DNA of 64,000 nt from Poseidonibacter lekithochrous (GTDB lineage Bacteria > Campylobacterota > Campylobacteria > Campylobacterales > Arcobacteraceae). Made by a program: the position numbers and the translations under genes. The notes beneath the pieces are model-generated. The model saw only the letters and a list, made by a program, of their open reading frames with translations, did no database searches and had not been told where the DNA came from. Of this stretch, positions 7,608-41,745 are shown piece after piece (position 1 is the stretch's first letter; each line of letters begins with the position of its first letter). Where the stretch lies: contig NZ_JAHKQT010000007.1 of NCBI RefSeq assembly GCF_018861145.1, forward strand, positions 1 to 64,000, read 5' to 3'.

Positions 7608-8368
7608 AAACTTTTAGTATATTAGGAACAGGCTGGTTAGGTTATACCTTAGCTTGTGAATTAAAAGATAAATATAAAGTAAAAGTTTCAATAAGAGATA
7701 AAAGTAAAAATGACAGATATAAAGAAGAAGGTTTATTCCCATTTTTTTTAAATGAAGAAAATCTTGATTCTTTAGATGATTTATTAGAGACTAATTATCT
7801 TTTTATAAATTTTCCTCCTTCTAAATTTAAAGATTATACAGGTTTTTTAAATATAATTTATTCACATAAAAAAATAAAAAATATTGAAAAAATTATATTT
7901 ATTTCTTCAACTTCAATTTATCCTGATTTAGATTTAGTATTTAAAGAAGAGTTTGTTTTAAAAGATTCAAAATCGCCTAAAGTTTATGATGCAGAAATTC
8001 TTATAGAAAATAAAACAGATTTAATTTTTAGATGTTCTGGACTTATGGGATATAACAGAATCGCAGGTAAACGTTCAAGTTCTAAAGTAGTAAATGATAA
8101 AGATATAAAAGTAAATTATATACATAGAGATGATGTCATAGATGCAACACTTTTTGCAATAGAAAATGACTTAAATGGAACTTTTAATTTAAGTGTTGAG
8201 GAACATCCTACAAAAGAAGAAATATATTTGTTTAATTCAAAAAAACATGGTTTCGAAAAATCAATATTTAAAGATGAAAAAGGTTTAAAAAATAGAATAA
8301 TAGATGGAAGTAAAATAGAAGAATCAGGATTTAAGTATAAATACTCAAACCCTTTTGATTTTATATAA
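7604..8368 (+). CDS. NAD(P)-dependent epimerase/dehydratase-like protein (YeeZ-like SDR)
   Basis: A 254-residue Rossmann-fold protein. SILGTGWLGYTLACEL at the N-terminus is a GxGxxG-type nucleotide-binding loop in the GTGWLG form seen in YeeZ-like atypical extended SDRs, followed by FISSTSIYP and NYIHRDDVIDA, which match extended-SDR motifs. A canonical YxxxK is not clear, so catalysis is uncertain. Its ATG overlaps the TGA of the channel gene by 4 bases, implying coupled translation. No substrate can be proposed. Confidence 0.7.
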   Translation: MKTFSILGTGWLGYTLACELKDKYKVKVSIRDKSKNDRYKEEGLFPFFLNEENLDSLDDLLETNYLFINFPPSKFKDYTGFLNIIYSHKKIKNIEKIIFISSTSIYPDLDLVFKEEFVLKDSKSPKVYDAEILIENKTDLIFRCSGLMGYNRIAGKRSSSKVVNDKDIKVNYIHRDDVIDATLFAIENDLNGTFNLSVEEHPTKEEIYLFNSKKHGFEKSIFKDEKGLKNRIIDGSKIEESGFKYKYSNPFDFI

Positions 8369-8373
8369 GTTGT

Positions 8374-8994
8374 TTAGTTAGTATTAAAAGCTCTGTCTCC
8401 AGCATCACCTAAACCTGGTCTAATATAATTATTCTCATCTAATCTTTCATCAATTTGAGCAATATAAATATCAACATCCAGATGTGCTTCTTGTACTTTA
8501 TTTACTCCATAAGGAGAACCTAAAACATTTAAACAAATAATTCTTTTTGGATTTTTTGTTTTTAAGTATTCTATTCCATCAATTAAAGAACCACCAGTTG
8601 CTACCATTGGATCTAATAATAAAACAGTTCTACCTTCTAAATTAGGAATATTTTCATAAAATAATTTACTTAATGAAGTCTCTTCATCTCTTTTCATAGC
8701 TAAGAATCCACTTTTTGCATAAGGTAATGTTTTTAAAATACCTGTAAGCATTGGTTCTCCTGCTCTTAAAATTGGAACAAGTACTAATTTTTGTACTTCG
8801 ATCATTTCTACATCCAATGGCCCTTGCCATGTATTAATATTTTGACTTACTGTTTCAAAATCTGCTAAGGCTTCTGATGCAATTATTCTTGATATTTCTT
8901 CAATTGTTAGCCTAAATTCATTTGATGTTGTTCTAACATCTCTTAATCTGTTTACAAGATGTTTAACAACAACATTTGTGCTTTCTTTATACAT
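8374..8994 (-). CDS. upp: Uracil phosphoribosyltransferase
   Basis: A 206-residue enzyme matching Upp length. It shows LVPILRAGEPMLTGIL, the PRPP-binding VLLLDPMVATGGSLIDGIEYL, and the C-terminal uracil-binding IRPGLGDAGDRAFNT. It converts uracil plus PRPP to UMP. It is transcribed divergently from the NCS2 permease at 9151, so uptake and trapping of uracil are encoded back to back across a roughly 155-bp intergenic region. Confidence 0.95.
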   Translation of the reverse strand: MYKESTNVVVKHLVNRLRDVRTTSNEFRLTIEEISRIIASEALADFETVSQNINTWQGPLDVEMIEVQKLVLVPILRAGEPMLTGILKTLPYAKSGFLAMKRDEETSLSKLFYENIPNLEGRTVLLLDPMVATGGSLIDGIEYLKTKNPKRIICLNVLGSPYGVNKVQEAHLDVDIYIAQIDERLDENNYIRPGLGDAGDRAFNTN

Positions 8995-9150
8995 AGTGAT
9001 TCCTAATTATTGGTTTATAAGTCTAAAAATTATTTTAAGTTCTAAACCTTATATATTACTAAAAAATTGCTTATAAATTGTATATTAATTAAATCTTAAT
9101 TAACTGATATTTAGATATCATTAAAAAATTTTTAAATTACAAGAGGTAAT

Positions 9151-10389
9151 ATGAAACCCACAGATTACAATTTTAGAGGAAAAGACTCTATTTTAGGACT
9201 ACAATTTTTATTTGTAGCTTTTGGTGCACTTGTGCTTGTTCCAATTTTGACAGGATTAGATCCTAGTGTTGCATTATTTACAGCAGGTCTTGGAACTTTA
9301 GTTTTTCAATTTGTAAATAGAGGTGCGATTCCTCCAATCTTTTTAGCTTCTTCATTCGCTTTTATTGCTCCTATTTCTTATGGTGTTCAAACTTGGGGAA
9401 TTGCTGCAACAATGTCTGGACTTGTAGCTGCTGGGTTATTATATGTAGTATTAAGTATGTTAATTAGACTAAAAGGTGATGGCTTTATTCATAAGTTATT
9501 ACCAGCAGTTGTAGTTGGTCCTGTTATTATGTCAATTGGTTTAATTCTTTCACCAGTTGCTGTTAATTTGGCAATGGGTAAAACAGGTGATGGTTCAATT
9601 GTTTTAGTACCTTTTGAATCTGCAATTGTAATTTCAATGATTGCTTTATTTGTTACTGTATTTTTCTCATTATTAGGAAAAGGAATGTTTAAATTAATTC
9701 CTATTTTAGCTGGAATTTTAATTGGATATATTGTTGCTTTAATGTATGGAATTGTTGACTTTACTGCCGTTTCAAAAGCTACTTGGTTTGCAATGCCGAA
9801 CTTTACAGCACCTGAGTTTAATTGGCAAGCAATTATCTTTATTTTACCAATTGCAATTGCTCCTGCAATTGAGCATATTGGTGATATGTTAGCAATTTCT
9901 AATGTTACAAAAGAAGATTACTTAAAGAAGCCAGGTTTAAAAAATACTTTATTAGGTGATGGTCTTGCTACTTCTGTTGCTGCACTATTTGGTGGTCCTC
10001 CTAATACTACTTATTCAGAAGTTACAGGTGCTGTTACTATTACAAAAGCATATAATCCTGCAATTATGACATGGGCAGCAATTTTTGCTATTGCATTAGC
10101 TTTTGTTGGAAAAATTGGTGGAGTTTTATCTACAATTCCTACACCTGTTATGGGCGGAATTATGTTGTTATTATTTGGAATTATTGCTACTTTAGGTATT
10201 TCTACACTTATTAAAGCGAAAACTGATTTTACTTGTCCTAGAAATATGATAATTGTTTCTATGATTTTAGTATTTTCAATAGGTGGTATGACATTTAATT
10301 TTGGTGGTGTACCATTTTCAGGAATTGGACTTGGTGCAATTGTTGGAATTTTATTAAATTTAGTGTTACCTCAAGCAACAAATAAATAG
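9151..10389 (+). CDS. uraA: Uracil/xanthine permease, NCS2 family
   Basis: A 412-residue permease of the UraA/UapA branch with about 14 helices. LLPAVVVGPVIMSIGL, the IAIAPAIEHIGDMLAISN helix with its substrate-binding Glu, and GGPPNTTYSEVTGAVTITK are typical of uracil transporters. Divergence from upp supports uracil as the main substrate. ATG at 9151 is preceded by AGAGGT. A strong hairpin terminator follows. Confidence 0.88.
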   Translation: MKPTDYNFRGKDSILGLQFLFVAFGALVLVPILTGLDPSVALFTAGLGTLVFQFVNRGAIPPIFLASSFAFIAPISYGVQTWGIAATMSGLVAAGLLYVVLSMLIRLKGDGFIHKLLPAVVVGPVIMSIGLILSPVAVNLAMGKTGDGSIVLVPFESAIVISMIALFVTVFFSLLGKGMFKLIPILAGILIGYIVALMYGIVDFTAVSKATWFAMPNFTAPEFNWQAIIFILPIAIAPAIEHIGDMLAISNVTKEDYLKKPGLKNTLLGDGLATSVAALFGGPPNTTYSEVTGAVTITKAYNPAIMTWAAIFAIALAFVGKIGGVLSTIPTPVMGGIMLLLFGIIATLGISTLIKAKTDFTCPRNMIIVSMILVFSIGGMTFNFGGVPFSGIGLGAIVGILLNLVLPQATNK

Positions 10390-10396
10390 TTTTATA

Positions 10397-10423
10397 ATTA
10401 GCTAGAAGAAAATTCTAGCTAAT
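10397..10423 (+). terminator. Rho-independent terminator after uraA
   Basis: Perfect 11-bp stem ATTAGCTAGAA (10397-10407) and TTCTAGCTAAT (10413-10423), followed by TCTTTTTC. Confidence 0.8.
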
Positions 10424-10450
10424 TTCTTTTTCTTCTTTACAAACTTTCTT

Positions 10451-10459
10451 TGCTATAAT
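10451..10459 (+). promoter_or_regulatory. Extended -10 promoter (TGCTATAAT) for the sensor kinase
   Basis: TG-n-TATAAT lies 29 bases upstream of the ATG at 10488, directly after the uraA terminator. Confidence 0.55.
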
Positions 10460-10487
10460 ATTTATAAATATATAAAGCGATTTAAAA

Positions 10488-13139
10488 ATGAATAAACTAA
10501 CAATAAAAGTTAAATTAATTTTATTATTTACAATTATTAAAATAGTACCTTTGATAATCATTATGTATATTTCATACAAAGGTATAAAAAACTTAAATGA
10601 ATATATGAATGATAGTACCACTTATTTATACAACCAAAGTAAAGAAATTATTTTAAATACGGCAAATAAATCAATAGATGATAGTATTAAGAATTTGAAT
10701 AAAAAATCTCAACTTTCACTTGAACGATTAAGTATTGAAACTGCAAATAAAATATCAGAGTTTTTAAAACAAAGAGATGAAGATATTTTATTCTTATCAC
10801 AAATACAACTTAATGATAAAATATTAGAAGAATTTTTTTATAACAAAAAAAAAGAGATTGTAGTCCATGATGATTATATCTATGATGAAAATAATAAAAA
10901 ATGGATTTCTTCAAAACTTGATAAGAAGAATACAAATAAATACAAACCCAAAATACATGAAGATAATAAAAGAGAATTTAGCTACATAACTCCTTTAGAT
11001 ATTAAAACAAAATCTGTTCCTATTTATAAAGAGATATCTTTTTTTAATCTTGAGGGAAAAGAAGAAAATAAAGTTTCACTCATAAATGAAGAAAAATTAG
11101 ATATATCAATAAAAAGTAATACATATATTAACTCTGAATCATATTTTGATGAAATAAAGCTTTTAAAAAAAGGTGAAATTTATGTATCAGATGTAATTGG
11201 TGAATATGTAGGAAGTAAAATAATTGGTACCTTTACACAAGAAAAAGCAAAAAAAATGAATATTCCTTTTATTGCTGAAAATTCTGCTTATGCTGGATTA
11301 GAAAATCCAAATGGAAAAAGATTTGAAGGTATAGTTAGATTTATTACTCCCGTTTTTAAAAATAAAATTAAAATTGGGTTTTTATCATTGGCACTAAACC
11401 ATAGACATATAATGGAATTTACTGATAATTTAGATCCTATTGGAGTTTATCCTAAGTTAAAAATCTCTGACCCATCCAAAGGTGATTATGCTTTTATATG
11501 GGATTATAAAGGAAGAAATATTTCACATCCTAGAGATTATTTTATTGTAGGATTTGATAAAAAAACAGGAAAAAGAGTTCCTGTTTGGGTTAGTGAAGAT
11601 ACAAATAAAGAGTTTTTATCATCTGGTAAAAAAAGTTTAAATGAGTTTTTAAAAACTTATCCAACTTTTAAAGATCAAACATTAAAACAAAAAGCTAATT
11701 TATCTCAACTTGCTAAAGGTGAGATACCTTTAGATTGTAGATATTTAAATTTTGCACCACAATGTAATGGCTGGATGGAGTTAACAGAAGATGGAGGACA
11801 TGGTTCTTTTATAATATATTGGAGTGGAGTTTTAAAACTTGTTACAGCAGCACCTATAAAATACAATACAGGGAAATATAAAAATTCAAAAAGAGGTTTT
11901 GGTTTTGTTACAATTGGTGCAACAATGGACCAATTCCATGCTGCTGCAAATAAAACAAAAAATAATATTGAAGATATATTAAAAGAGCAAAGTGATATTG
12001 TAAAAGATATTGTTGATGATAATAGATTTGAAATTAATTCTTATATTAATAGTATGCTTAAGGATTTAACTTTTGTTAGTTTACTTATGATTATTATTGT
12101 AATAATAATTGCATTATGGATGTCTTCATATATATCATCTAAAATTGAAAAACTTCTTCTTGGTACAAAGATGTTTGCTAATAATAAACTTGAATATAGA
12201 ATTAAAGTTGATGCAGATGATGAAATTGGAAACCTAGAAAAATCTTTCAATGATATGGCCTCAAAGATTGACATCTTGGTAAAAGAAAAAAACGAATTAA
12301 ATGAACATTTAGAAGAAAGTGTAAATAAAAAAACAAAAGAATTAATTGAAATTAACGAAGATTTAGAAGATAGAATAAAGAAAGTTGTTTTAAAGAATAG
12401 ACAAAAGGATGCTCAATTAATTCAAAATAATAAAATGGCATCTATTGGTGAGATGATTTCAATGATTATTCATCAATGGAAGCAACCTTTAAATGCGATT
12501 AGTATGATTAACTCTTCGCAAGAATTAAGAGTATTATTAGGAACTAATAGTGATGAAGAGCTAAAAAAAGATAATGAATCAATAAAAAAACAAGTTGAGT
12601 TAATGTCTTCAACAATGGAAGACTTTAGAAATTTCTTTAAAAATAAAAATAAAAGTGAATATAAAGTATCGTCAATGATTAGAAAGTCTTTAACCTTAAT
12701 TCAAAAGATTTATAACTATCAGGGAATATTTATAAATTATAAAGTAGAAGAAGGATTTGAAGAGGCAAAAACTTCAGGATATGAAAATGAAACTATTCAG
12801 GTTATGATTAATCTTTTAAATAATTCAAGAGATGCAATACTTATAAATAAAAGTGAAATAAAAACTATTGATGTAAATTGTAGCATTGAAAATGAGGATT
12901 TAGTTATAAGTATTCAAGATTATGCTGGTGGAATTGATGAAGAGATAAAAAATAATATTTTTGATGCATATTTTACTACAAAAGGCAATGAAGAGGGAAC
13001 TGGATTAGGATTATATATGGTTAAAACAATTCTTGAAAAAGTAGATGCTACAATTACCTTGGAAAATAAAGATATGAAAGTTGATAATATTTTATATAAA
13101 GGTGTAAACTTTATAATCAAATTACCTATTCTCCACTGA
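10488..13139 (+). CDS. Transmembrane sensor histidine kinase with large periplasmic Cache-type sensor
   Basis: An 883-residue kinase. TM1 is at about residues 8-28, followed by a roughly 500-residue extracytoplasmic region that looks like a double-Cache ligand sensor, and TM2 at about 527-550. A HAMP segment and a glutamate/lysine-rich coiled coil follow. The dimerisation H-box is MIIHQWKQPLNAI with His662, the HQWRQPL type common in Campylobacterota. The ATPase domain has the N-box (NLLNNSRDAI) and G-box GTGLGLYM near residue 837. No receiver domain and no adjacent response regulator is present, so it is an orphan kinase with unknown ligand and partner. Confidence 0.88.
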   Translation: MNKLTIKVKLILLFTIIKIVPLIIIMYISYKGIKNLNEYMNDSTTYLYNQSKEIILNTANKSIDDSIKNLNKKSQLSLERLSIETANKISEFLKQRDEDILFLSQIQLNDKILEEFFYNKKKEIVVHDDYIYDENNKKWISSKLDKKNTNKYKPKIHEDNKREFSYITPLDIKTKSVPIYKEISFFNLEGKEENKVSLINEEKLDISIKSNTYINSESYFDEIKLLKKGEIYVSDVIGEYVGSKIIGTFTQEKAKKMNIPFIAENSAYAGLENPNGKRFEGIVRFITPVFKNKIKIGFLSLALNHRHIMEFTDNLDPIGVYPKLKISDPSKGDYAFIWDYKGRNISHPRDYFIVGFDKKTGKRVPVWVSEDTNKEFLSSGKKSLNEFLKTYPTFKDQTLKQKANLSQLAKGEIPLDCRYLNFAPQCNGWMELTEDGGHGSFIIYWSGVLKLVTAAPIKYNTGKYKNSKRGFGFVTIGATMDQFHAAANKTKNNIEDILKEQSDIVKDIVDDNRFEINSYINSMLKDLTFVSLLMIIIVIIIALWMSSYISSKIEKLLLGTKMFANNKLEYRIKVDADDEIGNLEKSFNDMASKIDILVKEKNELNEHLEESVNKKTKELIEINEDLEDRIKKVVLKNRQKDAQLIQNNKMASIGEMISMIIHQWKQPLNAISMINSSQELRVLLGTNSDEELKKDNESIKKQVELMSSTMEDFRNFFKNKNKSEYKVSSMIRKSLTLIQKIYNYQGIFINYKVEEGFEEAKTSGYENETIQVMINLLNNSRDAILINKSEIKTIDVNCSIENEDLVISIQDYAGGIDEEIKNNIFDAYFTTKGNEEGTGLGLYMVKTILEKVDATITLENKDMKVDNILYKGVNFIIKLPILH

Positions 13140-13225
13140 TCTTAATCTAATATTTTTACTTTAGATATAAAATTATTTATATTACATAATATTAATAAAA
13201 ATTAAATTACTATTAAGATTAAATA

Positions 13226-13247
13226 TATAATAATGATAATCTATATC
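13226..13247 (+). promoter_or_regulatory. Fur box overlapping the fumC -10 element
   Basis: Bases 13229-13247 match the 19-bp Fur consensus GATAATGATAATCATTATC at 16 of 19 positions. They overlap a TATAAT at 13226-13231 and lie 16 bases before the fumC start codon, an ideal place for iron-dependent repression. Confidence 0.65.
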
Positions 13248-13263
13248 AATAAAGAGGAAGAAA

Positions 13264-14661
13264 ATGAATTATAGAATTGAAAAAGATACAATGGGCGAAA
13301 TAAAAGTTTCTAATAATAAATATTGGCAAGCACAAACTCAAAGAAGCTTAGAAAATTTTCCAATTGGTGAAGAAAAGATGTCAAAGGAAATAATAGAAGG
13401 CTTTGCGTATTTAAAAAAAGCTTGTGCAATAGTAAATAATAAGTTAAATAAACTCTCTAGTGAAAAAACAGATGCTATTTGTTTAGCTTGTGATGAGGTG
13501 ATAAAAGGGAGTTTAGATGATAACTTTCCTTTAGCTGTATGGCAAACAGGCTCAGGAACTCAAACAAATATGAATGTAAATGAAGTAATTGCATCAAGAG
13601 CTATAGAATTTTTAGGTAAAGATTTTAGAAAAGATAAATTAATTCATCCAAATGATGATGTAAATAAAGCTCAAAGCTCAAATGACACTTATCCTACAGC
13701 TATGAGAATAGCATTTGTTCTAGATATTCAAAGAAGATTAATTCCAGCGATAAATACTTTAAAAACTACTTTTGAGAAAAAAGAAAAAGAGTTTGAAAAA
13801 ATAGTAAAAATAGGAAGAACTCATCTTCAAGATGCAACACCTTTAACATTAGGACAAGAAATATCAGCTTATGTTGAAATGTTAAATAAAGCTTTGATAC
13901 AAATAAATGATGTTATGAAATATATTGTTGAATTAGCAATTGGAGGAACAGCTGTAGGGACTGGATTGAATTCACATCCAGATTTTTCACCTATGGTTTG
14001 TGATGTTTTAAATAAACTTACTAAAACACAATACGAGTTCAAATCTCATCCGAATAAATTTCATGCTTTAACTGCTCATGATGGAGAAGTTGTTTTGAGT
14101 GGAGTATTAAATGCACTTGCTTCAAATCTTATGAAAATTGCAAATGATATTAGATGGCTTTCAAGTGGTCCTAGATGTGGAATTGCTGAAATTAACATTC
14201 CCGAAAATGAACCTGGAAGTTCAATCATGCCTGGAAAAGTAAATCCTACTCAAAGCGAAGCTATGACTATGGTAGCTGTTCAAGTTATGGGAAATCATAC
14301 AACAATAAGTATTGCAGCATCACAAGGAAATTTTGAACTAAATGTATTTAAACCTGTAATTGCTTTAAATATTTTACAATCAATTAGACTCTTAAGTGAT
14401 ACGATGCTTGCTTTTAATAATAATTGTGCGATTGGAATTGAAGCAAACTTAGTAAATATAAATAAATATCTAAATGATTCTTTGATGCTAGTTACTGCAC
14501 TAAATCCATATATTGGGTATGAAAAAGCAGCACTTATTGCAAAAACTGCACATAAGAATGGAACAACACTAAAAGAAGAGACTATAAACCTAGGTATTTT
14601 GACAAAAGAAGAATTTGAATCTTATGTTAAACCAGAAGATATGATAGCAGCAAAAGCATAA
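13264..14661 (+). CDS. fumC: Fumarate hydratase class II (iron-independent)
   Basis: A 465-residue fumarase C, the usual length. It shows [16 protein letters not shown], the substrate-binding [26 protein letters not shown] with the catalytic-site His, and the superfamily signature [15 protein letters not shown] around residue 318. It interconverts fumarate and malate in the TCA cycle without an Fe-S cluster. AAGAGGAAGAAA precedes the ATG. A near-consensus Fur box covers the promoter, consistent with use of this enzyme when iron is scarce. A small acidic protein gene follows after 28 bases, and a TonB-dependent receptor with its own Fur box lies beyond that. Confidence 0.95.
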
Positions 14662-29088: not shown

Positions 29089-30386
29089 TTACAAGTGCTT
29101 TAGTATTTATATTAGCAGGTTGTAATAATAACTCACTAACAACACCAACAAATAAATCAACAATAAATAATGCACATTTTAAAAAGCAAGATGTAAAATA
29201 CTTTAACTTAGAAAATGAATATATAATGTATGCATTAGAATATGAATCTCAACAAAAATTTGAATCTTCTCGTGAAATATATTTAAAACTTTTTGAAAAT
29301 ACAAATAATCATGAATATTTAGTAAACTATTTAAATTTATCTTTTATATTAAAAGATTATGAAAATGTAAAGAAATATGCAGTTTCAAATTTGATAGAAA
29401 ATATAAAACAAGAAGAAATGATTTTAAAGCTTTATACTCTTTCATTATTAAAACTTAATGAAAAAGAAGAGACTATTATAAATGCAAAGAAATTAGTAAA
29501 TAAATTCTATCATAAAAGTAATCACACTTTATTAGCTAGTATTTATTTAGATTTAAAAGAGTATAAATTAGCATTAAAAGAGTTTGAAAAAGCCTATGAA
29601 ATTGATAAATCAATAGAAACTTTACAAACAATAACTAGTATTCAATACTATTATACAGAAGAAAAAGAAAAATCAAAGAGTACGATGCTTAATTATATAG
29701 AGAGAAATTCTTATCCTTTTACTTTATCTTTACAGCTTTTATCGTTTTATGAAAAAGACAAAGAAAAAGATAAAATTACACCTCTTTTAGAAACTATGTA
29801 TTTTACATATAAAAAAACAAATAAAGAGCCAATACTTACAAAAACTCAAGATTTATTGATTAAATATTTGGCAAATGAAGATAAAGATAAAGCAATACTA
29901 TTTTTAGAAAAAAATAATATTGAAAGTACTATCTTATTAGATTTATATAAGAATACAAATAAATTAACTAAAGCTAATTTATTATTAGATAAATTGTATA
30001 AAAAAACAAATAACTTGGACTACTTAGGGCAACAAGCAATTATAGAATTTGAAATGGCGAAAAATAAACAGATGGTTTTACCTAATGTTATTTCAAAATT
30101 TGATAAAGTATTAAAAAAAATTTCAAATCCAATTTATGAGAATTATTTAGCTTATATTTTAATTGATTATGATTTAGATATTAAAAGAGGATTATCTCTT
30201 GTTAAAAAGGCATTAATTTTAGAACCAGATAATCTAGCTTTTATTGATACTTTAGCATGGGGATTTTATAAAAATAAAGATTGTAAAAATGCATATATAC
30301 AGATGAAAAAAGTTGTTGATAGTGTAGGATTAGATGATGATGAAATTAAATTACATTGGGAAAAAATTAAGGAGTGTACTAAGTGA
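29064..30386 (+). CDS. TPR-repeat lipoprotein
   Basis: A 440-residue protein starting at GTG 29064, 25 bases inside the YkgJ-like gene. The first 20 residues form a lipoprotein signal with lipobox LAGC (Cys20). The remainder is helical with tetratricopeptide repeats, for example [18 protein letters not shown] and the C-terminal [19 protein letters not shown], which suggest a periplasm-facing scaffold. trpC overlaps its last 4 bases. Confidence 0.8.
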
Positions 30387-31174
30387 TATTAGATGAAATT
30401 ATAGAAAGAACAAAAGCAGATTTAGAGATTAGACAAAAAGATATACCTTTAGATTTATTAGGAAGAACATTAGCTTCAAACCCTTTTGCTCCAAGAGATG
30501 TTAAAGCATTTTTAACAGCAACAAAAGAAGAGCCAATTAGAATAATTGCAGAAGTTAAGAAAGCTAGCCCTTCAAAAGGTATAATAAAAGAAAATTTTAA
30601 TCCTATGGAAATTGCACAAGCTTATAGTAATAGTGGTGCAAATGCAATTTCAGTATTAACTGAACCTCATTATTTCCAAGGTAGTTTAGAGTATTTAACT
30701 GCAATTAGAAGATATGTACCAACTCCACTTTTAAGAAAAGATTTTATTGTTGATAAATATCAAATTGTTGAAGCTTTAGTTTATGGTGCAGATTTTATTT
30801 TACTTATTGCAAAAGCATTAGGTACCAAAGAGATGAAAGAATTATACGAGTATGCTTTACATTTAGGTTTAGAAGTTTTAGTTGAAATACATGATAAAGA
30901 AGATTTAACTAAAGCTATTAAATGTGGTGCAAGTATAATTGGAATTAATCATAGAAATCTTGATACATTTGAGATGGATATGGAATTATGTGATAAATTA
31001 ATTCCAATGATTCCAAATGGAAAAATTATTGTTGCAGAATCTGGTGTTTCTAATGTAGATACTATACAAAGATTATCAGGAATTGGTGCTGATGCATTCT
31101 TAATTGGTGAGCATTTTATGAGACAAGTTTCAATAGAAGATGAAGTTAAGAAATTTAAAAACTCTTTGAACTAG
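30383..31174 (+). CDS. trpC: Indole-3-glycerol phosphate synthase, 3' end supplied by the integrated element
   Basis: An intact 263-residue TrpC starting at GTG 30383. [57 protein letters not shown] and VAESGVSN are the substrate and catalytic motifs. The last 164 bases before the final codons (30999-31162) are a perfect copy of 41570-41733. After that the gene ends NSLN here but NALN in the right-hand copy. So the terminal codons and downstream DNA belong to the inserted element, which keeps trpC in frame. The native terminator now lies at 41759. Confidence 0.95.
30999..31162 (+). repeat. attL: left 164-bp direct repeat (trpC 3' end)
   Basis: Identical base for base, by eye, to 41570-41733. 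It lies within the trpC reading frame. Flanking sequence differs on both sides. The crossover point is somewhere inside. Confidence 0.9.
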
Positions 31175-31235: not shown

Positions 31236-31257
31236 TGATACACAATCTGATACACAA
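31236..31257 (+). repeat. Tandem TGATACACAA pair, left end (integrase arm-site candidate)
   Basis: Two direct copies of TGATACACAA two bases apart, 38 bases before the integrase start. The same pair occurs at 41452-41473. A reverse-orientation TTGTGTAT is at 31192-31199. Confidence 0.65.
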
Positions 31258-31294: not shown

Positions 31295-32491
31295 TTGAAA
31301 AAACTACCAAAGATTAGAATTAAATCAAATGGAACTTTTTATATTAAGTTTAGAGTAGGAACGATTCTTTATCCTTATTTTAAAAAAGAATTTATCACTA
31401 AATCATTTTCTAAAAAATCAAATCATTTTATAAATCTTGAAAGAGCATTAATTTTAAAAAAATATTTGGAGCTAGAAGAACTTGCAAAAAATAGTTTAAT
31501 TGATAAAAAGTACATTGAACATTTAGTTGTAGATTTTAAGATTAATATTTTAAATCAAAAAATTGAAAATAAAAATCTAGATAACTGTAATATTACAATA
31601 TTTAATGCTTATGAAAAGTTCAAAAGATTTTATAACTTAGAACAGATTAAAGAATCAACAAGAAAACAAACTTATGTAACTTTAGATTTATTTATAGAAT
31701 TAATAGGTAAAAATAGATTAATAGAAGAAATAGAACTATATGATTTAATAGGAATAAAATCTAAGCTAGAAAAATTAGGAAATAGAAACTATAAGGAATA
31801 TAAACATTTATCATTAAAAGATTATGTAAAAGTGAAAGATGTACCTATTGAAAAAAGAATAAATGATGGAAGTTTAAAAAGTCATATAAAACATATTAAA
31901 AAGTTTTTTACATTTTGTGTAAAAAATAGAATTATAAAATATAATCCATCAGATAACCTAACTGTAAAAGTTGATTTAGATAAAAAGGATGCATTTACTC
32001 AAGATGAGATAGATAAATTAATAACTATTATAAATGAATATCCTAATGAACTAAAATATCTTTTCTTAATAATCATTTATACAGGTATGAGAAGAAATGA
32101 AGTTTTTAATTCTACTATTAAGCAGTTTGAAGGGATTAGATATTTTGATATAAATGAATCTAAAACAAAAAGTGGAATAAGAAAAATTCCAATACATTCT
32201 AAAATAGATTTTATTTCTAATTATATGTTTGAAGGAGCAAAACAAATTACAAATTCAGTAAATTTTGGTGCAATATTTAACAAAAAGATTAAAACATTAG
32301 TTACAACAGATAAAAGAAAAACATTACATTCAATAAGACATTATGTTGCCACAAAGTTAAAAAGAACCTCAGCAAGTGATTCAATGATTAAAACAATATT
32401 AGGTCATAGTGAAAATGATACTTTAAATACCATTTATGCAAAAGAGGGTTATAGCTTAAAACAGATTAAAGAGGTGATAGAATATTTGTGA
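31295..32491 (+). CDS. Tyrosine recombinase / integrase of the trpC element
   Basis: A 398-residue phage-type integrase starting at TTG 31295 with AAAGGTG upstream. The N-terminal region (about 1-60) is basic and could be the arm-binding domain. The catalytic set is visible: Arg266 (YTGMRRNEV), His345-x-x-Arg348 (LHSIRHYVATKL), His371 (LGHSENDT) and nucleophile Tyr381 (NTIYAKEGY). It sits directly beside attL and reads into the element, the usual layout for site-specific integrases. Tandem TGATACACAA repeats near both element ends are likely arm sites. No excisionase was recognised, although one of the small proteins could serve. Confidence 0.93.
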   Translation: MKKLPKIRIKSNGTFYIKFRVGTILYPYFKKEFITKSFSKKSNHFINLERALILKKYLELEELAKNSLIDKKYIEHLVVDFKINILNQKIENKNLDNCNITIFNAYEKFKRFYNLEQIKESTRKQTYVTLDLFIELIGKNRLIEEIELYDLIGIKSKLEKLGNRNYKEYKHLSLKDYVKVKDVPIEKRINDGSLKSHIKHIKKFFTFCVKNRIIKYNPSDNLTVKVDLDKKDAFTQDEIDKLITIINEYPNELKYLFLIIIYTGMRRNEVFNSTIKQFEGIRYFDINESKTKSGIRKIPIHSKIDFISNYMFEGAKQITNSVNFGAIFNKKIKTLVTTDKRKTLHSIRHYVATKLKRTSASDSMIKTILGHSENDTLNTIYAKEGYSLKQIKEVIEYL

Positions 32492-32611
32492 GAATTAAAA
32501 ATTTAAGAAAAAGATCTGTATTTATAAATAATTTAGATAAATAATAATAATATAAATATTATTTGTAGTTTTTTACAATGATTAATGATTTTTAATAAAA
32601 AAAGGAAAAAT

Positions 32612-34363
32612 ATGGGTTTTTTTAGTAAATTATTTGGGAGAAATCAATCATCAAATAAAACTGAGAATGTAGTAGAGGATAAACAAGAAATAAAAGAGGT
32701 ACTTTCATCAAACAGAACTAAAAATGATGAGAATATTATAGATGATGAACCTGAAGTAAAAACAGTACCGTTAGATACTATACTTGATGAAAAAATAGAA
32801 TATTTATTAGAAAAAAAGAATGTTTTCTTTCAGGAAATCGAAACACTTGTAGAAGAAAAGAAAGAACTAACTATTGAAAATTGGAATATTTTTATTATAG
32901 ATTTTTTTCAAAAGTGTAATGTAGCTGTTCCATTAAATAATATTGATGAAAGATTTGATTTTATTAATAAAGTTAATGAAAAAATTCATGAATATGCTAT
33001 CAATAAAATTTTTGAAGAAATTAAAGTACAATTTTTAGAAGAAATAGATAAGCATATAAAGGTACTAGCAAAAAAATTTAATATATTAGTTTATCAAAAT
33101 GATTATGGAGATTATCAATTTGATAATTGGTATAAGGAATTAGATTACTTTTATAGTAGATATTCTATAGATTTAAGTTTATTTGATGAAAGTAAATTGA
33201 ATGAACTTTATAATGTTGCTACGGAAAAGGTTTTAAGATATTTAGAGCAAGAAGATTTAACTGATAAATTAGTTTTTGATGAAAATATGTCACCTACAGA
33301 CTATGAATATTTTTGTGCTGATATATTAAAATCAAATGGTTTAGATGCAAGAGTGACAAAAGCTTCAGGAGACCAAGGTGCAGATGTAATTGTTTATGAT
33401 AAAAATAATCTAGCAATTGTAGTTATTCAATGTAAGTTATACAGTAACCCAGTTGGAAATAAAGCTGTACAAGAAATATATAGTGCAAAACAACATTATG
33501 GAGCAAGTAGAGCTATTGTTGTAACTAATAATACTTTTACTAAATCAGCCCGACAATTAGCAAATAGTACAAAAGTAGAATTACTACATCATGAAGATTT
33601 ATATGATTTAGTTGAGAAATTGCCTATTTCAACTAATACAAATCAAGTTGACAATTATTTTAATGAAGATTTTGTAGAATTGATGAAACCTATTTTAGAA
33701 GGTTTAGTTACTACAAATTATTTTATACTTGTGAATCATTATATTGAAAGTAATGATTATTCAATATTAAATAATTATTTTAAAAAGTTCTTTATCTCTA
33801 TAAATGCTTCACATTTTGATAATAATGAGACAATAGAATCAATTGTCAACTCTAAACAATATAAAGATTTAGAGTTATTTTTTAAAATACAAATATTTCA
33901 TAAGTTAGTGTTTATATTATTTGCTCCAATATTAAAATTATTTTATGACAAACTTAATGAAGAAAATACAAAGAGTAAAATTCATGAACTTATTAAAAGT
34001 AATATTTTAAAAGAATTAAAAAATGTTAATTTAATTAATGATATTGATGAAAAAATAAATGAGTCATTAAATATTTTATTTACTGATGAAAGTACTATTC
34101 TTTATGCAGTAATTAATTACATCCATTTTAATATATATACAAAAAATCCAGAGTTATTTTTAAAAGTAAAAAATTATTCAGATACGGAATGGAAAAATAT
34201 ATTAATATCAAAATCAAAAGAAATATTAAAAAATGAATTTTCATACTTAGATTTTCCAGATACAGATGATAATATTTTAATAATAAACTTTTCTCAATGG
34301 CATCAGTATTTAACAAGTGATGAAAAATCAAAATTGATAATTACAGAAGATGATTTACAGTAG
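32612..34363 (+). CDS. Mrr-like restriction endonuclease-domain protein
   Basis: 583 residues from ATG 32612, chosen over 32585 because AAAGGAAAAAT precedes it. It begins MGFFSKLFGR, a possible amphipathic membrane or clamp-binding helix. Residues about 235-335 are an Mrr-type nuclease core: MSPTDYEYFCADIL, GDQGADVIVYD with Asp258, VVIQCKLYSNPVGN with the Gln273-x-Lys275 motif, and YGASRAIVVTNN. Flanking N- and C-terminal regions are helical and unlike known domains. Mrr-domain proteins cut modified or foreign DNA as type IV restriction or anti-phage factors. A defence role as element cargo is likely but not shown. Confidence 0.82.
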   Translation: MGFFSKLFGRNQSSNKTENVVEDKQEIKEVLSSNRTKNDENIIDDEPEVKTVPLDTILDEKIEYLLEKKNVFFQEIETLVEEKKELTIENWNIFIIDFFQKCNVAVPLNNIDERFDFINKVNEKIHEYAINKIFEEIKVQFLEEIDKHIKVLAKKFNILVYQNDYGDYQFDNWYKELDYFYSRYSIDLSLFDESKLNELYNVATEKVLRYLEQEDLTDKLVFDENMSPTDYEYFCADILKSNGLDARVTKASGDQGADVIVYDKNNLAIVVIQCKLYSNPVGNKAVQEIYSAKQHYGASRAIVVTNNTFTKSARQLANSTKVELLHHEDLYDLVEKLPISTNTNQVDNYFNEDFVELMKPILEGLVTTNYFILVNHYIESNDYSILNNYFKKFFISINASHFDNNETIESIVNSKQYKDLELFFKIQIFHKLVFILFAPILKLFYDKLNEENTKSKIHELIKSNILKELKNVNLINDIDEKINESLNILFTDESTILYAVINYIHFNIYTKNPELFLKVKNYSDTEWKNILISKSKEILKNEFSYLDFPDTDDNILIINFSQWHQYLTSDEKSKLIITEDDLQ

Positions 34364-34499: not shown

Positions 34500-35117
34500 A
34501 TGAATAAAATTATAGGATATTGTAGAGTTTCAACAGATGTTCAAACAACAGAAAACCAAAGAAGAGAAATATTAGATTATGTTCATTCTAAAAATCTAAC
34601 GATTGATGAGATTATTGAAGTAACTATTAGTTCAAGAAAAAATACAAAAGATAGAGAAATTGATAAAACATTATTAAAACTTGAAAGAGGAGATACTTTA
34701 ATAGTAACTAAGCTTGATAGATTAGGAAGAAGTACAATAGAAGTTTTAAAAATCATTGAAGAACTAAAAGAGAAAGGTATTATCTTACAAATTATAAAAG
34801 ATAGTATTGTTGTTGATGATAATAATACAAATCCTATTAATACAATGATGCTAACTTTACTTAGTGGTTTTGCTCAAATGGAAAGAGATTTTATAAGTGA
34901 AAGAACAAAATCAGCACTTGCACAAAGAAAAGCTCAAGGAGTAAAATTAGGAAGAAAAAAAGGTCAAATAGTAAAATCAAAATTTGATGAACATAAGGAG
35001 AAAATAGAAGAGTTATTATCTTATGGTGTACCTATTAGTAAAATTGTAAATCAAATAGGAATAGGAACAAGACAAAGTTTAACTACATATATAAACACAC
35101 GAGGATTAAAGAAATAG
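34500..35117 (+). CDS. Serine recombinase, resolvase/invertase family
   Basis: A 205-residue small serine recombinase. IGYCRVSTDVQ gives catalytic Ser11. LIVTKLDRLGRST and GFAQMERDFISERTKSALAQRKAQG are the conserved catalytic and E-helix segments. A C-terminal helix-turn-helix (YGVPISKIVNQIGIGTRQSL) binds DNA. It resembles Pin/Hin and plasmid-type resolvases. In this element it could resolve dimers of a replicating circle or invert a segment. No res or inverted crossover site was recognised, though the 136-bp stretch upstream is the natural place for one. Confidence 0.93.
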   Translation: MNKIIGYCRVSTDVQTTENQRREILDYVHSKNLTIDEIIEVTISSRKNTKDREIDKTLLKLERGDTLIVTKLDRLGRSTIEVLKIIEELKEKGIILQIIKDSIVVDDNNTNPINTMMLTLLSGFAQMERDFISERTKSALAQRKAQGVKLGRKKGQIVKSKFDEHKEKIEELLSYGVPISKIVNQIGIGTRQSLTTYINTRGLKK

Positions 35118-35184: not shown

Positions 35185-35448
35185 CTAAATACCTTTAAAA
35201 AACTCATTTATATCAACTTCTAAAACATCAGCAATTTTTACTAAATGTTCAATATTAAAATGTTTGTTTTTTATACAAAGCTCAGCCATAGAAACTGTAC
35301 CAACTGCTTTATGACCAATTGCTAAAGATAAGGCTAATTGAGAAACACCCTTTTCTTTTCTAACTCTTTTGACATTTTGTCCAATAGTCTTATATATCTC
35401 TAACATTTTTTCTTTTGTGATTGAAGTGCTGTTATTTTCTAAGTTCAT
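35185..35448 (-). CDS. XRE-family HTH regulator (element repressor candidate)
   Basis: 87 residues from the ATG at 35448; an in-frame extension to 35505 would run through operator-like repeats and is less likely. IGQNVKRVRKEKGVSQLALSLA and VLEVDINEFFKGI are the Cro/CI-type helix-turn-helix frame. It is the only leftward gene of the element. Repeats of ACTATAGG/CCTATAGT occur at 35456-35463, 35471-35478 (ACTATAAG) and 35509-35516 between it and the rightward zinc-ribbon gene, and again at 37374-37382 before the SHOCT gene. It probably represses itself and both of those promoters. Confidence 0.85.
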   Translation of the reverse strand: MNLENNSTSITKEKMLEIYKTIGQNVKRVRKEKGVSQLALSLAIGHKAVGTVSMAELCIKNKHFNIEHLVKIADVLEVDINEFFKGI

Positions 35449-35455
35449 AAAACTA

Positions 35456-35516
35456 CCTATAGTAAATTTAACTATAAGTGTATACTTAAGTGATAATTCT
35501 CTCAACTAACTATAGG
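35456..35516. promoter_or_regulatory. Operator candidates for the XRE regulator
   Basis: Half-sites CCTATAGT (35456-35463) and ACTATAAG (35471-35478) form an inverted pair with a 7-base spacer, and a third ACTATAGG is at 35509-35516. They lie in the divergent promoter region. Confidence 0.5.
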
Positions 35517-35573
35517 CATATCTTTCTAATTAAGTAGTATTTGTGTAAAATGTAATAATTTATTATTTAAGGA
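35488..35573 (+). repeat. Promoter-region repeat, copy 1 (86 bp)
   Basis: Nearly the same as 37354-37440 along its length, with the exact core AATTCTCTCAACTAACTATA followed by GG and an ATAT. It ends in the ribosome-binding site of the first zinc-ribbon gene. Confidence 0.75.
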
Positions 35574-37353: not shown

Positions 37354-37440
37354 AAGTGACAATTCTCTCAACTAACTATAGGTATATTCGTGTAATTAAG
37401 TATTGTTTTTAATAAATGTAGTTATTTATTATTTAAAGGA
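37354..37440 (+). repeat. Promoter-region repeat, copy 2 (87 bp)
   Basis: Companion of 35488-35573. It starts within 2 bases of the previous stop codon and ends at the AAAGGA of the SHOCT gene, so the duplicated unit is a promoter, operator and leader without coding sequence. Confidence 0.75.
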
Positions 37441-37447
37441 AAATATT

Positions 37448-38152
37448 TTGTATATTATTATTTGGGTTGTTTTAGCATTTTTTGTAGGTTATTTAGCAAA
37501 TAAAAAAGGTAGGTCATTTTTTGGTTATTTTATTTTAGCTTTAATATTATCTCCTTTAGTTGGTTTTATTATTTTGTTAGCTGTTGGTGAGGATGAAGAT
37601 TCTTTGATTGCTCAAGGAAGATTCAAAAAATGTCCAAAATGTAAAGGTAAAAATGATATAGATGCGGAAGTTTGTAAACATTGTGGTAATAATCTAAAAA
37701 AATCAATTGTAGAACTTAAAGATAAAGATTCATTAATGTATATATTATACATTAGTAAAGATATTAATTTTAATTATATAAAAAACAAAATATTTGAATA
37801 TTTTAATTCTCTAAACTTTACTAATGTAGTAAAAGATAAAGAAAAATTTTATCAAATTAGAAATGATAAAGCAAATGCATACATTTTATTAAAAGAAAAA
37901 GATGATAAATTATATTTAGAATTATTTAGAGTAAATGAACCAAACTTTATTAATAAAATTAAAAAAAATACTAAAATAGATAATTCCACTAAATCTGAAT
38001 TAACTGAAAGAGAGATTGATTTGAGAGAAACAAATTCTGATAATAATGATAAAACAAAAAAACTAGTAGAACTAAAAGATATGTTAGAAAAAGATTTAAT
38101 CACAAAAGATGAGTTTGATAAGTTGAAAAAAGAAATAATAGAAGGAAAATAA
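37448..38152 (+). CDS. Two-pass membrane protein with zinc ribbon and SHOCT domain
   Basis: 234 residues from TTG 37448, seven bases after AAGGA; the open frame extends to 37403 but that part lies in the duplicated leader. Two membrane helices (about 2-17 and 27-46) are followed by a zinc ribbon (Cys62, Cys65, Cys76, Cys79), a middle alpha/beta region of about 80 residues, and a C-terminal SHOCT domain (residues about 204-232, LVELKDMLEKDLITKDEF). SHOCT is a short C-terminal module thought to mediate oligomerisation. Role unknown. The shared promoter links it to the other zinc-ribbon protein. Confidence 0.72.
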   Translation: MYIIIWVVLAFFVGYLANKKGRSFFGYFILALILSPLVGFIILLAVGEDEDSLIAQGRFKKCPKCKGKNDIDAEVCKHCGNNLKKSIVELKDKDSLMYILYISKDINFNYIKNKIFEYFNSLNFTNVVKDKEKFYQIRNDKANAYILLKEKDDKLYLELFRVNEPNFINKIKKNTKIDNSTKSELTEREIDLRETNSDNNDKTKKLVELKDMLEKDLITKDEFDKLKKEIIEGK

Positions 38153-38801
38153 TAATGTCAATATTTTGTGAATCATTATTAATTTAAAGGTTTATATTAT
38201 ATATAAATATTGAATGTAATCTTTTTAAGATAATAATAAATAACAAGAGTTATTCAGCAAAACTTAAGTCAAATTTAGATATAATAGTGCAAATTTACTG
38301 AAAAGGGTAAAAAATGGAAAATGTTATTGTTCAAGGAGTTTGTAAAAGAAGTAAGTAAAAACCTAACTTATACAAAATCTACTTAATTTAAAACTCTCTC
38401 AAAACAAATCATTTAAATTACAATGTTAAAATCAAGCAAACAAAGCTTTTAAATTGTCTTCGGGCAAGAGTTAGTTATGCTTAAATGTTATTGCAGTAAT
38501 TGCAAGAATTATATATATCTAAAATAAGGAGGTGTTATATGTAAAAATATATTTTTACAAAAGAGTTAAGTTTTTGAAAGTATTTCTATAAAATCAAAAG
38601 AATGATACTATTATTCTTCTAAATTCTATCTTAACTTAATCTTTTTTAATGCTACTTGTACAGTAGAACGATTAAAACAATCAAAAAACTTTATCACTGT
38701 TAAATGGATATTTATAGGGCAAGAGTTAGTTATGCCTGAAAATATGAGTTGATTTGGTGCTTAATAGCAATATATATAATTAAAATAAAGGAAAATAAAT
38801 A
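38153..38801 (+). other. Structured 649-bp non-coding region of the element
   Basis: No convincing gene. It contains a 14-codon frame at 38314-38358 (MENVIVQGVCKRSK) behind AAAAGGG; a hairpin with UUCG loop at 38454-38467 (TTGTC/GGCAA); two exact copies of GGGCAAGAGTTAGTTATGC at 38462-38480 and 38717-38735, each 59-67 bases before an ATG with a ribosome-binding site; a start-stop codon pair ATG-TAA at 38539-38544 after AAGGAGG; a perfect 18-bp palindrome at 38541-38558; and a hairpin AAGAAT/ATTCTT near 38600. It could hold an origin, a small RNA or a decayed gene. Confidence 0.5.
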
Positions 38802-39051: not shown

Positions 39052-39570
39052 ATGAACATAAGATTAAATTTAACAAAAAGAGGTGCAAATTTTCAGTATG
39101 AGATATTAAGAGATTTACTCAAAGGATATACAGTATCAAATGGGTATGAAATGAATTATTTTGTAAGTAGTTTATCAAAAGAGATAAGTAAGCTTAGAAA
39201 ATATGGTTTGATTATTACAGGTGCAAAAGAAACTTTTATTTATAAAAGAGAGTATATATATAAACTTTCACAAGAAAGTATTGAAAAAGCAAAAGAACTT
39301 TTATATGAAGGTGAACTTACAAATAAACTTTCTAATATATTAGAGGATTTATTAAGAACTAAAAAAAGAGTTTTTGCAGAATATTCAAATCCATACAATT
39401 GTAAAAATGTTTTAGCAGTTATTAGAAGATTGAAAGAAAAGGGGTTAAAATTTAAAAGAGAATGGGTACAAAATGAAACTAATAATAGAAAACATATAGA
39501 GATAAATCTTGTTTTTACTGAGGAAAATAAGTTACTTGCAAAACAATTATTAGAACAGTTTAAAAAATAG
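39052..39570 (+). CDS. Probable tandem winged-helix DNA-binding protein of the element
   Basis: A 172-residue basic protein with two similar halves. In each, helices are followed by a likely recognition helix and a beta hairpin: residues about 15-80 (FVSSLSKEISKLRKYGLIITG, then YIYKLSQESIEKAKELL) and about 90-170 (CKNVLAVIRRLKEKGLKFKRE, then IEINLVFTEENKLLAKQLL). This pattern suits a duplicated winged helix as in plasmid initiators or excision factors. It has a strong AAGGAG site and lies directly upstream of the hairpin and polymerase gene. The assignment is from predicted shape, not a recognised family. Confidence 0.55.
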   Translation: MNIRLNLTKRGANFQYEILRDLLKGYTVSNGYEMNYFVSSLSKEISKLRKYGLIITGAKETFIYKREYIYKLSQESIEKAKELLYEGELTNKLSNILEDLLRTKKRVFAEYSNPYNCKNVLAVIRRLKEKGLKFKREWVQNETNNRKHIEINLVFTEENKLLAKQLLEQFKK

Positions 39571-39782: not shown

Positions 39783-41450
39783 ATGAAAGAGAGAGAATTA
39801 AAGAATGGATATGTAATAAAGATGATGCATGAACACTATCCAATGATGCAGAGGTTACTAAGAATGGGGGTTGATGCTAAAGGAGTTAGTTATCAGAGGT
39901 ATCTGGATAGAGCAAAAGGATTGAGAGGTTTTTTGTTTTTTTTAGATTATGTATTGACTCATAGAATTGAGTTTAAGTATTGTGATTTTAGTATGTCACA
40001 AAAATGGATAAGAGATAATTTTCAATATGGTGAATTTTTTAAACTATTTCTAGAAATAAACTTCTCCATTTCAAATCATAATAGTAAGGATAGAATACCT
40101 AAAAAATATAATTTTTGGGATACATTTAAAAATGCATTATATGAAATTGTTCAAATGGTATATGAAAAAAATAAAGAAAAAGAACTTTATTCAATTTATG
40201 ATATAAGTGAAATTAAGAAAATTAATGAATATTATTCTTTGCCTTTTTCTAAATCTATTTTATATGATAAAGATATGTTTGAATATGTTAATGAATTATT
40301 TAATGAGGAAAATAATGTTGTAAATTCTTCTATAAAACTTTTAAATAAAAAACCTTTTGCAAATGTAGGTAACTTAAATCTAAATTTTACTCAGAAAAAA
40401 GATGTTTGTTATTTATATGGCTTAACAAAGAGAGAATATGATGATTTATCAAAAGCTAGTGGAAAAGATTTTTATACCTTTGATTTTCAAAAAAGTAGAG
40501 TAAAAATAAAGCAAAAGCAAAACAAGAGTGATTTAAAAAATCATATAAATACAAAAGTAATATTAAATAATAAAGCTATCAATGAAACTATAAAAGAGTA
40601 TAGAACTGATACTGAGAATTTTATATATATATTCTCATTTTTTAACTTATTAAGGCATTATGAAAAGGGAACTAATCATATAGTTTATAATCAAAAAAAA
40701 TTTAGGTTATATTCTACTAATGAATTAAACTTTGGAATTAATTTTCAATCAATACCTTCAAGATTTAGAAGTGTTATATTTAAAGACCAATATGATTATG
40801 ATATAAATGCAGGTGCTCCAACCTTACTTTATCAATATTTACAAAAAAAGTTACCAAATGAAGGTATTAAACTAAAGTATTTAGAAAGTTATATTGAAAA
40901 TAGAAAAGTATTAAGAATGAAATGTGCTGAGGTTTTAGTTGAAAAATTTGGAAAATCTAACATAGAATATCAAAAAGGTGTTAAGCAGATAATTACTGCG
41001 ATGTTTTATGGTTCAAATTTAACCTACTCAGCTAAAGATGATAAGTATGAACTAAAATATGATAAGAGAAAATATTTACTTGAAAATCTAAAAGAATTTA
41101 AAGGTTTATATGATGATGCAAAAAAACTTTTTAAATATTTTACAAAGTATATTAAAAGCTTAAAGATAATTGATGAAAAATATGAACTTGAAGAAGAGAT
41201 TTATATTGACAAATATGAGTTAAATGACGGTAAAAAAGAGGAGAAAAAGATTAACTCAATAGTTTGTGAGATTTATTTTTATTTAGAAAGCAAAATCTTA
41301 CTTCTAATGTATGAAAGATATAAAGAAGATATAAGTTTATTGATTCATGATGGTTTTATTTGTAGAAAAGATATTGAAGTAAGTGAACTAGAAAAACTTG
41401 TAAAAGAAAATTTTGATTATGATGTAAAATACTCGAAAGATAAGCTATAG
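39783..41450 (+). CDS. TV-Pol-like replicative polymerase of the element
   Basis: A 555-residue protein with AGGAGG 8 bases upstream. The C-terminal half shows three palm motifs of the family-A DNA polymerase / T7 RNA polymerase superfamily. Motif A: YDYDINAGAPTLL with Asp340, preceded by the basic RFRSVIFKD. Motif B: Lys401-x7-Tyr409-Gly410 (KQIITAMFYGS), the spacing seen in PolA and in T7 RNAP KRSVMTLAYGS. Motif C: LLIHDGFICRK with His522-Asp523. The N-terminal about 300 residues are helical and unassigned. These features best fit the TV-Pol family described in bacterial mobile elements and the Sputnik virophage, which was proposed to prime and extend DNA. It is the only replication candidate in the element. 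Confidence 0.62.
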   Translation: MKERELKNGYVIKMMHEHYPMMQRLLRMGVDAKGVSYQRYLDRAKGLRGFLFFLDYVLTHRIEFKYCDFSMSQKWIRDNFQYGEFFKLFLEINFSISNHNSKDRIPKKYNFWDTFKNALYEIVQMVYEKNKEKELYSIYDISEIKKINEYYSLPFSKSILYDKDMFEYVNELFNEENNVVNSSIKLLNKKPFANVGNLNLNFTQKKDVCYLYGLTKREYDDLSKASGKDFYTFDFQKSRVKIKQKQNKSDLKNHINTKVILNNKAINETIKEYRTDTENFIYIFSFFNLLRHYEKGTNHIVYNQKKFRLYSTNELNFGINFQSIPSRFRSVIFKDQYDYDINAGAPTLLYQYLQKKLPNEGIKLKYLESYIENRKVLRMKCAEVLVEKFGKSNIEYQKGVKQIITAMFYGSNLTYSAKDDKYELKYDKRKYLLENLKEFKGLYDDAKKLFKYFTKYIKSLKIIDEKYELEEEIYIDKYELNDGKKEEKKINSIVCEIYFYLESKILLLMYERYKEDISLLIHDGFICRKDIEVSELEKLVKENFDYDVKYSKDKL

Positions 41451-41451
41451 T

Positions 41452-41473
41452 TGATACACAATTTGATACACAA
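41452..41473 (+). repeat. Tandem TGATACACAA pair, right end
   Basis: Same tandem pair as 31236-31257 with one base different in the spacer. It is 97 bases inside attR. Confidence 0.65.
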
Positions 41474-41569: not shown

Positions 41570-41733
41570 TAATTCCAATGATTCCAAATGGAAAAATTAT
41601 TGTTGCAGAATCTGGTGTTTCTAATGTAGATACTATACAAAGATTATCAGGAATTGGTGCTGATGCATTCTTAATTGGTGAGCATTTTATGAGACAAGTT
41701 TCAATAGAAGATGAAGTTAAGAAATTTAAAAAC
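41570..41733 (+). repeat. attR: right 164-bp direct repeat
   Basis: Exact copy of 30999-31162. To its right the original host sequence continues (final trpC codons, stop and terminator). Confidence 0.9.
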
Positions 41734-41745
41734 GCTCTTAATTAA
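41571..41745 (+). pseudogene. trpC: Displaced 3' end of trpC
   Basis: Encodes the last 57 residues of TrpC up to KNALN and a TAA stop. There is no promoter or full coding region, so it is not a functional gene. It is the original host tail left behind by element insertion and still has the native terminator after it. Its ending (NALN) differs from that of the restored gene (NSLN). Confidence 0.88.

Follow-up and report, generated by a model that had tools for sequence, protein, structure and literature searches.

Sequence comparison indicates that an integrative element of 10.57 kb, inserted at the 3′ end of trpC in Poseidonibacter lekithochrous, carries the gene of a divergent family-A polymerase, and that gene and element are both real. 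The enzyme probably synthesizes the DNA of its own element, either on the circle formed by excision or when the element is transferred and re-established, and perhaps primes this synthesis itself. The reading is carried by homology to bacterial DNA polymerase I (PolA), by conserved catalytic residues, by an integrated element with empty sites in related genomes, and by the repeated linkage of the gene to recombinases. The whole stretch of DNA that was analysed, hereafter the window, comprises 64,000 nt (GCF_018861145.1, NZ_JAHKQT010000007.1, positions 1–64,000, forward strand), and its relevant features are collected in Table 1.

Table 1. The trpC element and its putative polymerase, in window coordinates
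Feature	Position	Strand	Details
trpC, indole-3-glycerol-phosphate synthase	30383..31174	+	target gene; element restores 3′ end
Left direct repeat (attL region)	30999..31173	+	trpC 3′ end; empty sites in congeners
TGATACACAA twice in tandem, left end	31236..31257	+	probable integrase arm sites
Tyrosine (phage-type) integrase	31295..32491	+	398 aa; PF00589, 1e-11
Mrr-type restriction endonuclease protein	32585..34363	+	probable defence cargo; PF04471, 1.2e-29; PADLOC ZorD/type IV matches
Small serine recombinase, gamma-delta resolvase/invertase type	34500..35117	+	PF00239, 1.3e-37
Cro/CI-type HTH regulator	35185..35505	-	PF01381, 1.9e-6
Winged-HTH-like protein, upstream of polymerase	39052..39570	+	172 aa; PF14090, E 0.0015, under cut-off
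Family-A (PolA-superfamily), TV-Pol-like polymerase	39783..41450	+	555 aa; predicted catalytic core ~280–555; N-terminal domain 1–280, no family assigned
Template-side block R308-x-Y310 ... Q322-S-I-P ... R329	40704..40769	+	PolA GRL..LQNIP..R equivalent; 8/8 proteins; PolA alignment
Motif A, D340-INAGAPT	40800..40823	+	Ala345 at E. coli Pol I Glu710 position
Motif B, K401-x7-Y409-G410	40983..41012	+	Thr405 at Pol I Phe762 position; Gln397, slightly upstream, at RxxxK Arg position
Motif C, H522-D523-G-F	41346..41357	+	sequence and 8-protein alignment
TGATACACAA twice in tandem, right end, directly past polymerase stop	41452..41473	+	probable integrase arm sites
Right direct repeat (attR region)	41570..41744	+	98% identical to left; displaced native trpC 3′ end

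The polymerase ORF starts with ATG, is free of internal stops and is preceded by the purine-rich stretch GAGAGGAGGGGAAAGGA. A sequence-only reading had assigned Asp340, Lys401, Tyr409, Gly410, His522 and Asp523 to the three motifs of a polymerase palm, and translation of the ORF places all six residues where they had been put. By themselves the motifs are weak evidence for a polymerase, because the bare pattern D..K-x7-YG..HD also arises in 1.1% of 100,000 shuffles of the protein; it occurs in one of the 60 window ORFs of at least 150 aa. They rise far above chance through their conservation across relatives. In an alignment of eight divergent proteins from different elements, among them the remote homologue of genome G397 and the phage protein MAP_030 (see below), R308, Y310, Q322, R329, D340, R378, K401, G410, E502, H522 and D523 are invariant, and the position of Y409 is Tyr in six, Phe in G397 and Asn in MAP_030. 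The block FQSIPSRFR (residues 321–329), which is LQ(S/N)IP-like and lies ahead of motif A, had been overlooked; nothing else in the protein comes as close to a PolA signature.

Membership of superfamily A is well supported by profile–profile comparison. The core profile matched cellular PolA with a best probability of 87.5 (E 3.6e-6, score 52.1), as against a maximum score of 19.0 in 50 column-shuffled controls. Across profile versions the PolA matches ranged from E 3.6e-6 to 2.6e-5 and from 46 to 52 in score; with an earlier seven-sequence profile, 20 shuffles stayed at or below 23.2 and a reversed control gave 20.0. The alignment sets R308/Y310 on GRLSS, FQSIP on LQNIP, D340 on motif A, K401..YG on motif B and H522-D523 on HDE. 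A core profile of two sequences was by itself not significant against PolA, the wider sequence set being required. With T7 and SP6 RNA polymerase the score was 16–20, i.e., at the level of the shuffles, for an RNA polymerase profile built from two sequences only. Because of the PolA match and this shuffle-level score, PolA is a nearer relative than T7 RNA polymerase, which is not supported as the nearest one. The family-A palm proposed in the sequence-only reading is thereby backed, together with the invariant residues, and the link to T7 RNA polymerase drawn in the same reading finds no profile similarity.

Other searches returned little. The single sequence had no match in Pfam, PHROG or NCBIfam, no meaningful one among PDB sequences, no relative among viral contigs and phages, and one spurious match among plasmids; hmmsearch with the core profile against PDB sequences gave zero matches. 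Exonuclease or nuclease domains were not recognised in the protein, and the N-terminal domains of the relatives showed no mutual profile match. AlphaFold models from a two-sequence input reached a mean pLDDT of 32 (full length) and 50 (core), and fold searches with them gave no match at E <0.001, Klenow fragments appearing among chance-level matches only.

The element is bounded by direct repeats of 175 bp that are 98% identical and correspond to the trpC 3′ end. In four of the five congeners that have the downstream gene, this gene follows trpC directly, i.e., the site is empty. The right repeat continues as it does in the congeners, so the last codons of the left trpC copy are derived from the element. 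The repeats, the integrase and the empty sites in four congeners confirm the earlier notion of a mobile element. All four exact copies of TGATACACAA in the window lie at the element ends, with a tandem pair inside each, as integrase arm sites would be. Small Zn-ribbon or membrane proteins are also encoded. In the predicted excised circle the polymerase gene would directly precede the integrase gene, with the joined repeat between them. The element has no recognisable helicase, initiator or SSB partner, a Pfam search found no D5 helicase, Rfam gave zero matches, and no iteron-like origin was identified.

The polymerase gene is rare and scattered, as expected for a mobile gene. Of 397 whole genomes sampled from the same phylum 4 contained it, and of 104 genomes from the family, searched separately, 3 did, G431 being one of them. 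The homologue in G385 is full length and 31–32% identical to the window polymerase (E 2.7e-40), and that in G431 is 29% identical over its full length (E 7e-50) and 35% identical to the G385 protein. A remoter homologue turned up in G397 in the phylum search; translated searches from it led to the small Polaromonas plasmid pW9NP1 (E 7e-9) and to phage 7757 of Desulfovibrio (E 4e-11), after which a further relative was reached on pH8NP1, likewise a small Polaromonas plasmid. Scans of viral contigs using the relatives as queries gave nothing beyond near-identical Ma-LMM01-type sequences.

The elements that carry these relatives differ in size and content. That of G385 measures 4.5 kb and is flanked by tRNA-Ser gene repeats of 81 bp. 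Its three long ORFs encode an integrase (27% identical to the window integrase), a protein of 254 aa with no family assigned, and the polymerase, which takes up a third of the element. The G431 copy lies ~0.5 kb from a tRNA-Leu gene, in the surroundings of a tRNA-Leu cluster, and adjoins an HsdR-like gene. A decayed element in G372 (L042, 5559–8476) has a polymerase gene broken by an IS, an adjoining tyrosine integrase gene and ffh nearby. Homologues of the serine recombinase stand alongside the polymerase in G397, pW9NP1 and pH8NP1, and on pW9NP1 the polymerase gene ends ~10 bp upstream of repA. Since both plasmids also encode a RepA of their own, the polymerase is not necessarily what replicates them. 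The window element has only the polymerase and recombinases in common with the other elements, and because only these recur the polymerase would serve a core function of the element; its retention in a three-gene element also speaks for such a function and against cargo. Replication is the simplest such function, with excision, transfer or repair synthesis as alternatives.

Two of the relatives stand out by their annotation. The protein of pH8NP1 (L015, 5926–7431) is labelled “Clp protease N-terminal domain-containing protein”, which is likely a misannotation. Phage 7757 (L014, 4290–6593) encodes an unannotated 767-aa protein that has the polymerase core and ~200 extra C-terminal residues, and a PHROG search with it gave no match.

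Of the known families TV-Pol fits the ORF best, although the protein is better described as a TV-Pol-like branch of superfamily A than as a proven TV-Pol. Like TV-Pol (PMC2579912), it appears to have a minimal family-A core without nuclease domains within a length of 400–600 aa, and it is found on elements with a lambda-type integrase or gamma-delta-type resolvase and direct repeats (~200 nt in Brucella). The arginine that TV-Pol has in a beta-hairpin before motif A corresponds to R308, present in 8/8 proteins and aligned in position with PolA; the two metal-binding aspartates correspond to D340 and D523 (8/8), and the mobile neighbourhood with integrase, resolvase or transposase is likewise present. 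TV-Pol proteins have an all-helical N-terminal domain (a subset) or a C-terminal D5 helicase (PMC2579912), whereas the N-terminal domain of the window polymerase is unmatched and the element has no recognised D5 helicase; Pfam, PHROGs and NCBIfam miss the protein. It also lacks the RxxxK arginine of the fingers: the residue at −4 of the invariant K401 is Gln397, by eye non-Arg in the relatives as well, and an invariant arginine, R378 (8/8), lies elsewhere in the fingers. The Microcystis phage Ma-LMM01 carries a TV-Pol (Iyer, Abhiman and Aravind 2008, PMC2579912). A profile built without MAP_030 matched this protein alone among 104 ORFs of the phage (E 2.8e-7; all but 12 kb of the phage scanned), and MAP_030 is likely the TV-Pol reported by Iyer et al. 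The earlier assignment to TV-Pol survives as the best-fitting named family, by the Ma-LMM01 match and the linkage to integrase and resolvase, but not as strict membership, by the missing RxxxK arginine and the N-terminal domain.

In the proposed sequence of events, the integrase would excise the element via the direct repeats, and the polymerase would then probably synthesize element DNA on the circle or during transfer and re-establishment. By homology, Asp340 and Asp523 would be the metal ligands of two-metal synthesis, Lys401 and Tyr409 would act in the fingers, and Arg308 would hold the template strand. We infer a catalytically active enzyme that would replicate the element and prime, perhaps laying down its own primers as proposed for TV-Pol enzymes. 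De novo priming by TV-Pol is a proposal from gene context (PMC2579912), and primer-independent synthesis by CcPol was shown only with its partner MP (PMC7581432, PMC10061031). In CcPol, Glu174 and Phe225 are the equivalents of E710 and F762 and exclude ribonucleotides (PMC7581432). These positions are Ala345 and Thr405 in the window polymerase, and its relatives have A, H or V at the first and T or L at the second; because the sugar-excluding residues of Pol I and CcPol are lost, use of ribonucleotides, and thus RNA or mixed priming, may be possible. A bolder version, which we regard as rather doubtful, is a family-A counterpart of the pipolins: elements down to ~4.5 kb whose core would be a tyrosine integrase and a self-starting, ribonucleotide-accepting polymerase, with neither an SSB partner nor an element helicase. 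Counting against synthesis of element DNA as the role of the enzyme are the lack of a recognised helicase, initiator or SSB, the missing RxxxK arginine and the lack of a supportive fold match.

Among the other readings, the enzyme might be a family-A DNA polymerase that needs a primer and serves the element in gap filling or DNA repair, following integration, transfer or damage by restriction, and is neither primase nor main replicase. This is somewhat unlikely, even though PolA is the closest relative, relatives co-occur with a RepA initiator on plasmids, and CcPol without MP extends but cannot prime (PMC7581432, PMC10061031): the 4.5-kb element devotes one third of its length to the polymerase, and linkage to repair or nuclease genes is not consistent. 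The resemblance of motif B (KQIITAMFYGS) to that of T7 RNA polymerase (KRSVMTLAYGS), with Ala345 and Thr405 in place of the ribonucleotide-excluding residues of Pol I, would suit a T7-like single-subunit RNA polymerase that transcribes the element genes; the shuffle-level score for T7/SP6 (two RNA polymerase sequences), set against 46–52 for PolA, makes this improbable. It is more improbable still that the protein is cargo, i.e., a defence or counter-defence protein on a polymerase fold. Defence-type genes are close by, Mrr in the window and the HsdR-like gene near the G431 copy, but PADLOC leaves the polymerase unmatched, no other defence gene is recognised in the three-gene element, and the polymerase recurs between elements while the cargo varies.

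The element with its putative replicating polymerase has parallels in several known systems. Pipolins (piPolB, PMC7385651) are likewise integrative, with att repeats, a recombinase, their own polymerase and variable cargo, and use tRNA-gene sites, as does the G385 relative; the window polymerase differs in belonging, by sequence, to family A and not B, and its priming would be by analogy. CcPol-MP of SCCmec and the PolA-SSB primases (PMC7581432, PMC10061031) offer a family-A polymerase on an integrative element and a proposed primase. Unlike there, no MP-like SSB partner and no Cch-type helicase are recognised in the window element (no OB-fold family among the polymerase neighbours was matched in Pfam, MP-like proteins being hard to see by sequence), the recombinase is of another type, and CcPol retains the ribonucleotide-excluding Glu and Phe where the window polymerase has Ala and Thr. 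With PolA itself the protein shares the superfamily, motifs A, B and C and the LQNIP-like block, but its core is only ~20% identical and exonuclease domains are unrecognised; the host genome encodes its own PolA elsewhere. The proteins divPolA1 and divPolA2 (PMC11348598), from phages with large genomes, are similar by description: they are divergent members of family A that accompany a regular polymerase, and divPolA2 has an uncharacterised N-terminal domain.

Elements with such a polymerase may synthesize their DNA themselves and perhaps also prime it. As Pfam, PHROGs, NCBIfam and PADLOC miss the protein, they are annotated as encoding hypothetical proteins. The proposal of priming by a lone polymerase dates for TV-Pol to 2008 (PMC2579912), and in the literature cited here biochemistry exists for CcPol-MP only (PMC7581432). 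The 4.5-kb relative would offer a very small system in which to test whether priming and replication of a mobile element are within the reach of a lone family-A polymerase, and the loss of both sugar-excluding residues gives a clear prediction on RNA or mixed priming.

Some smaller observations concern the elements at large. The Mrr-type protein has a nuclease domain that matches the one in Zorya ZorD (6e-19) but lacks the helicase. A 24-nt direct repeat (92%; 38462–38485 and 38717–38740) lies in a 650-bp non-coding stretch preceding the genes toward the polymerase and is a candidate leader, operator or origin. An 83-nt direct repeat (83% identical; 35488–35570 and 37354–37436) precedes both the HTH regulator gene and ORF 37403–38152, possibly as a shared operator or promoter. 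Locus L012 has six palindromic sites TAGAATTCCA-N5-TGGAATTCTA (at 2302, 3508, 7377, 11346, 13272 and 14304), which are absent elsewhere in its 2.8-Mb genome and from the window genome. Their centres form reverse-complementary pairs, which enclose a tyrosine recombinase gene and the stretch 7377–14329; just outside lie copies of a serine recombinase gene in inverted orientation, and the sites look like recombination or inversion sites.
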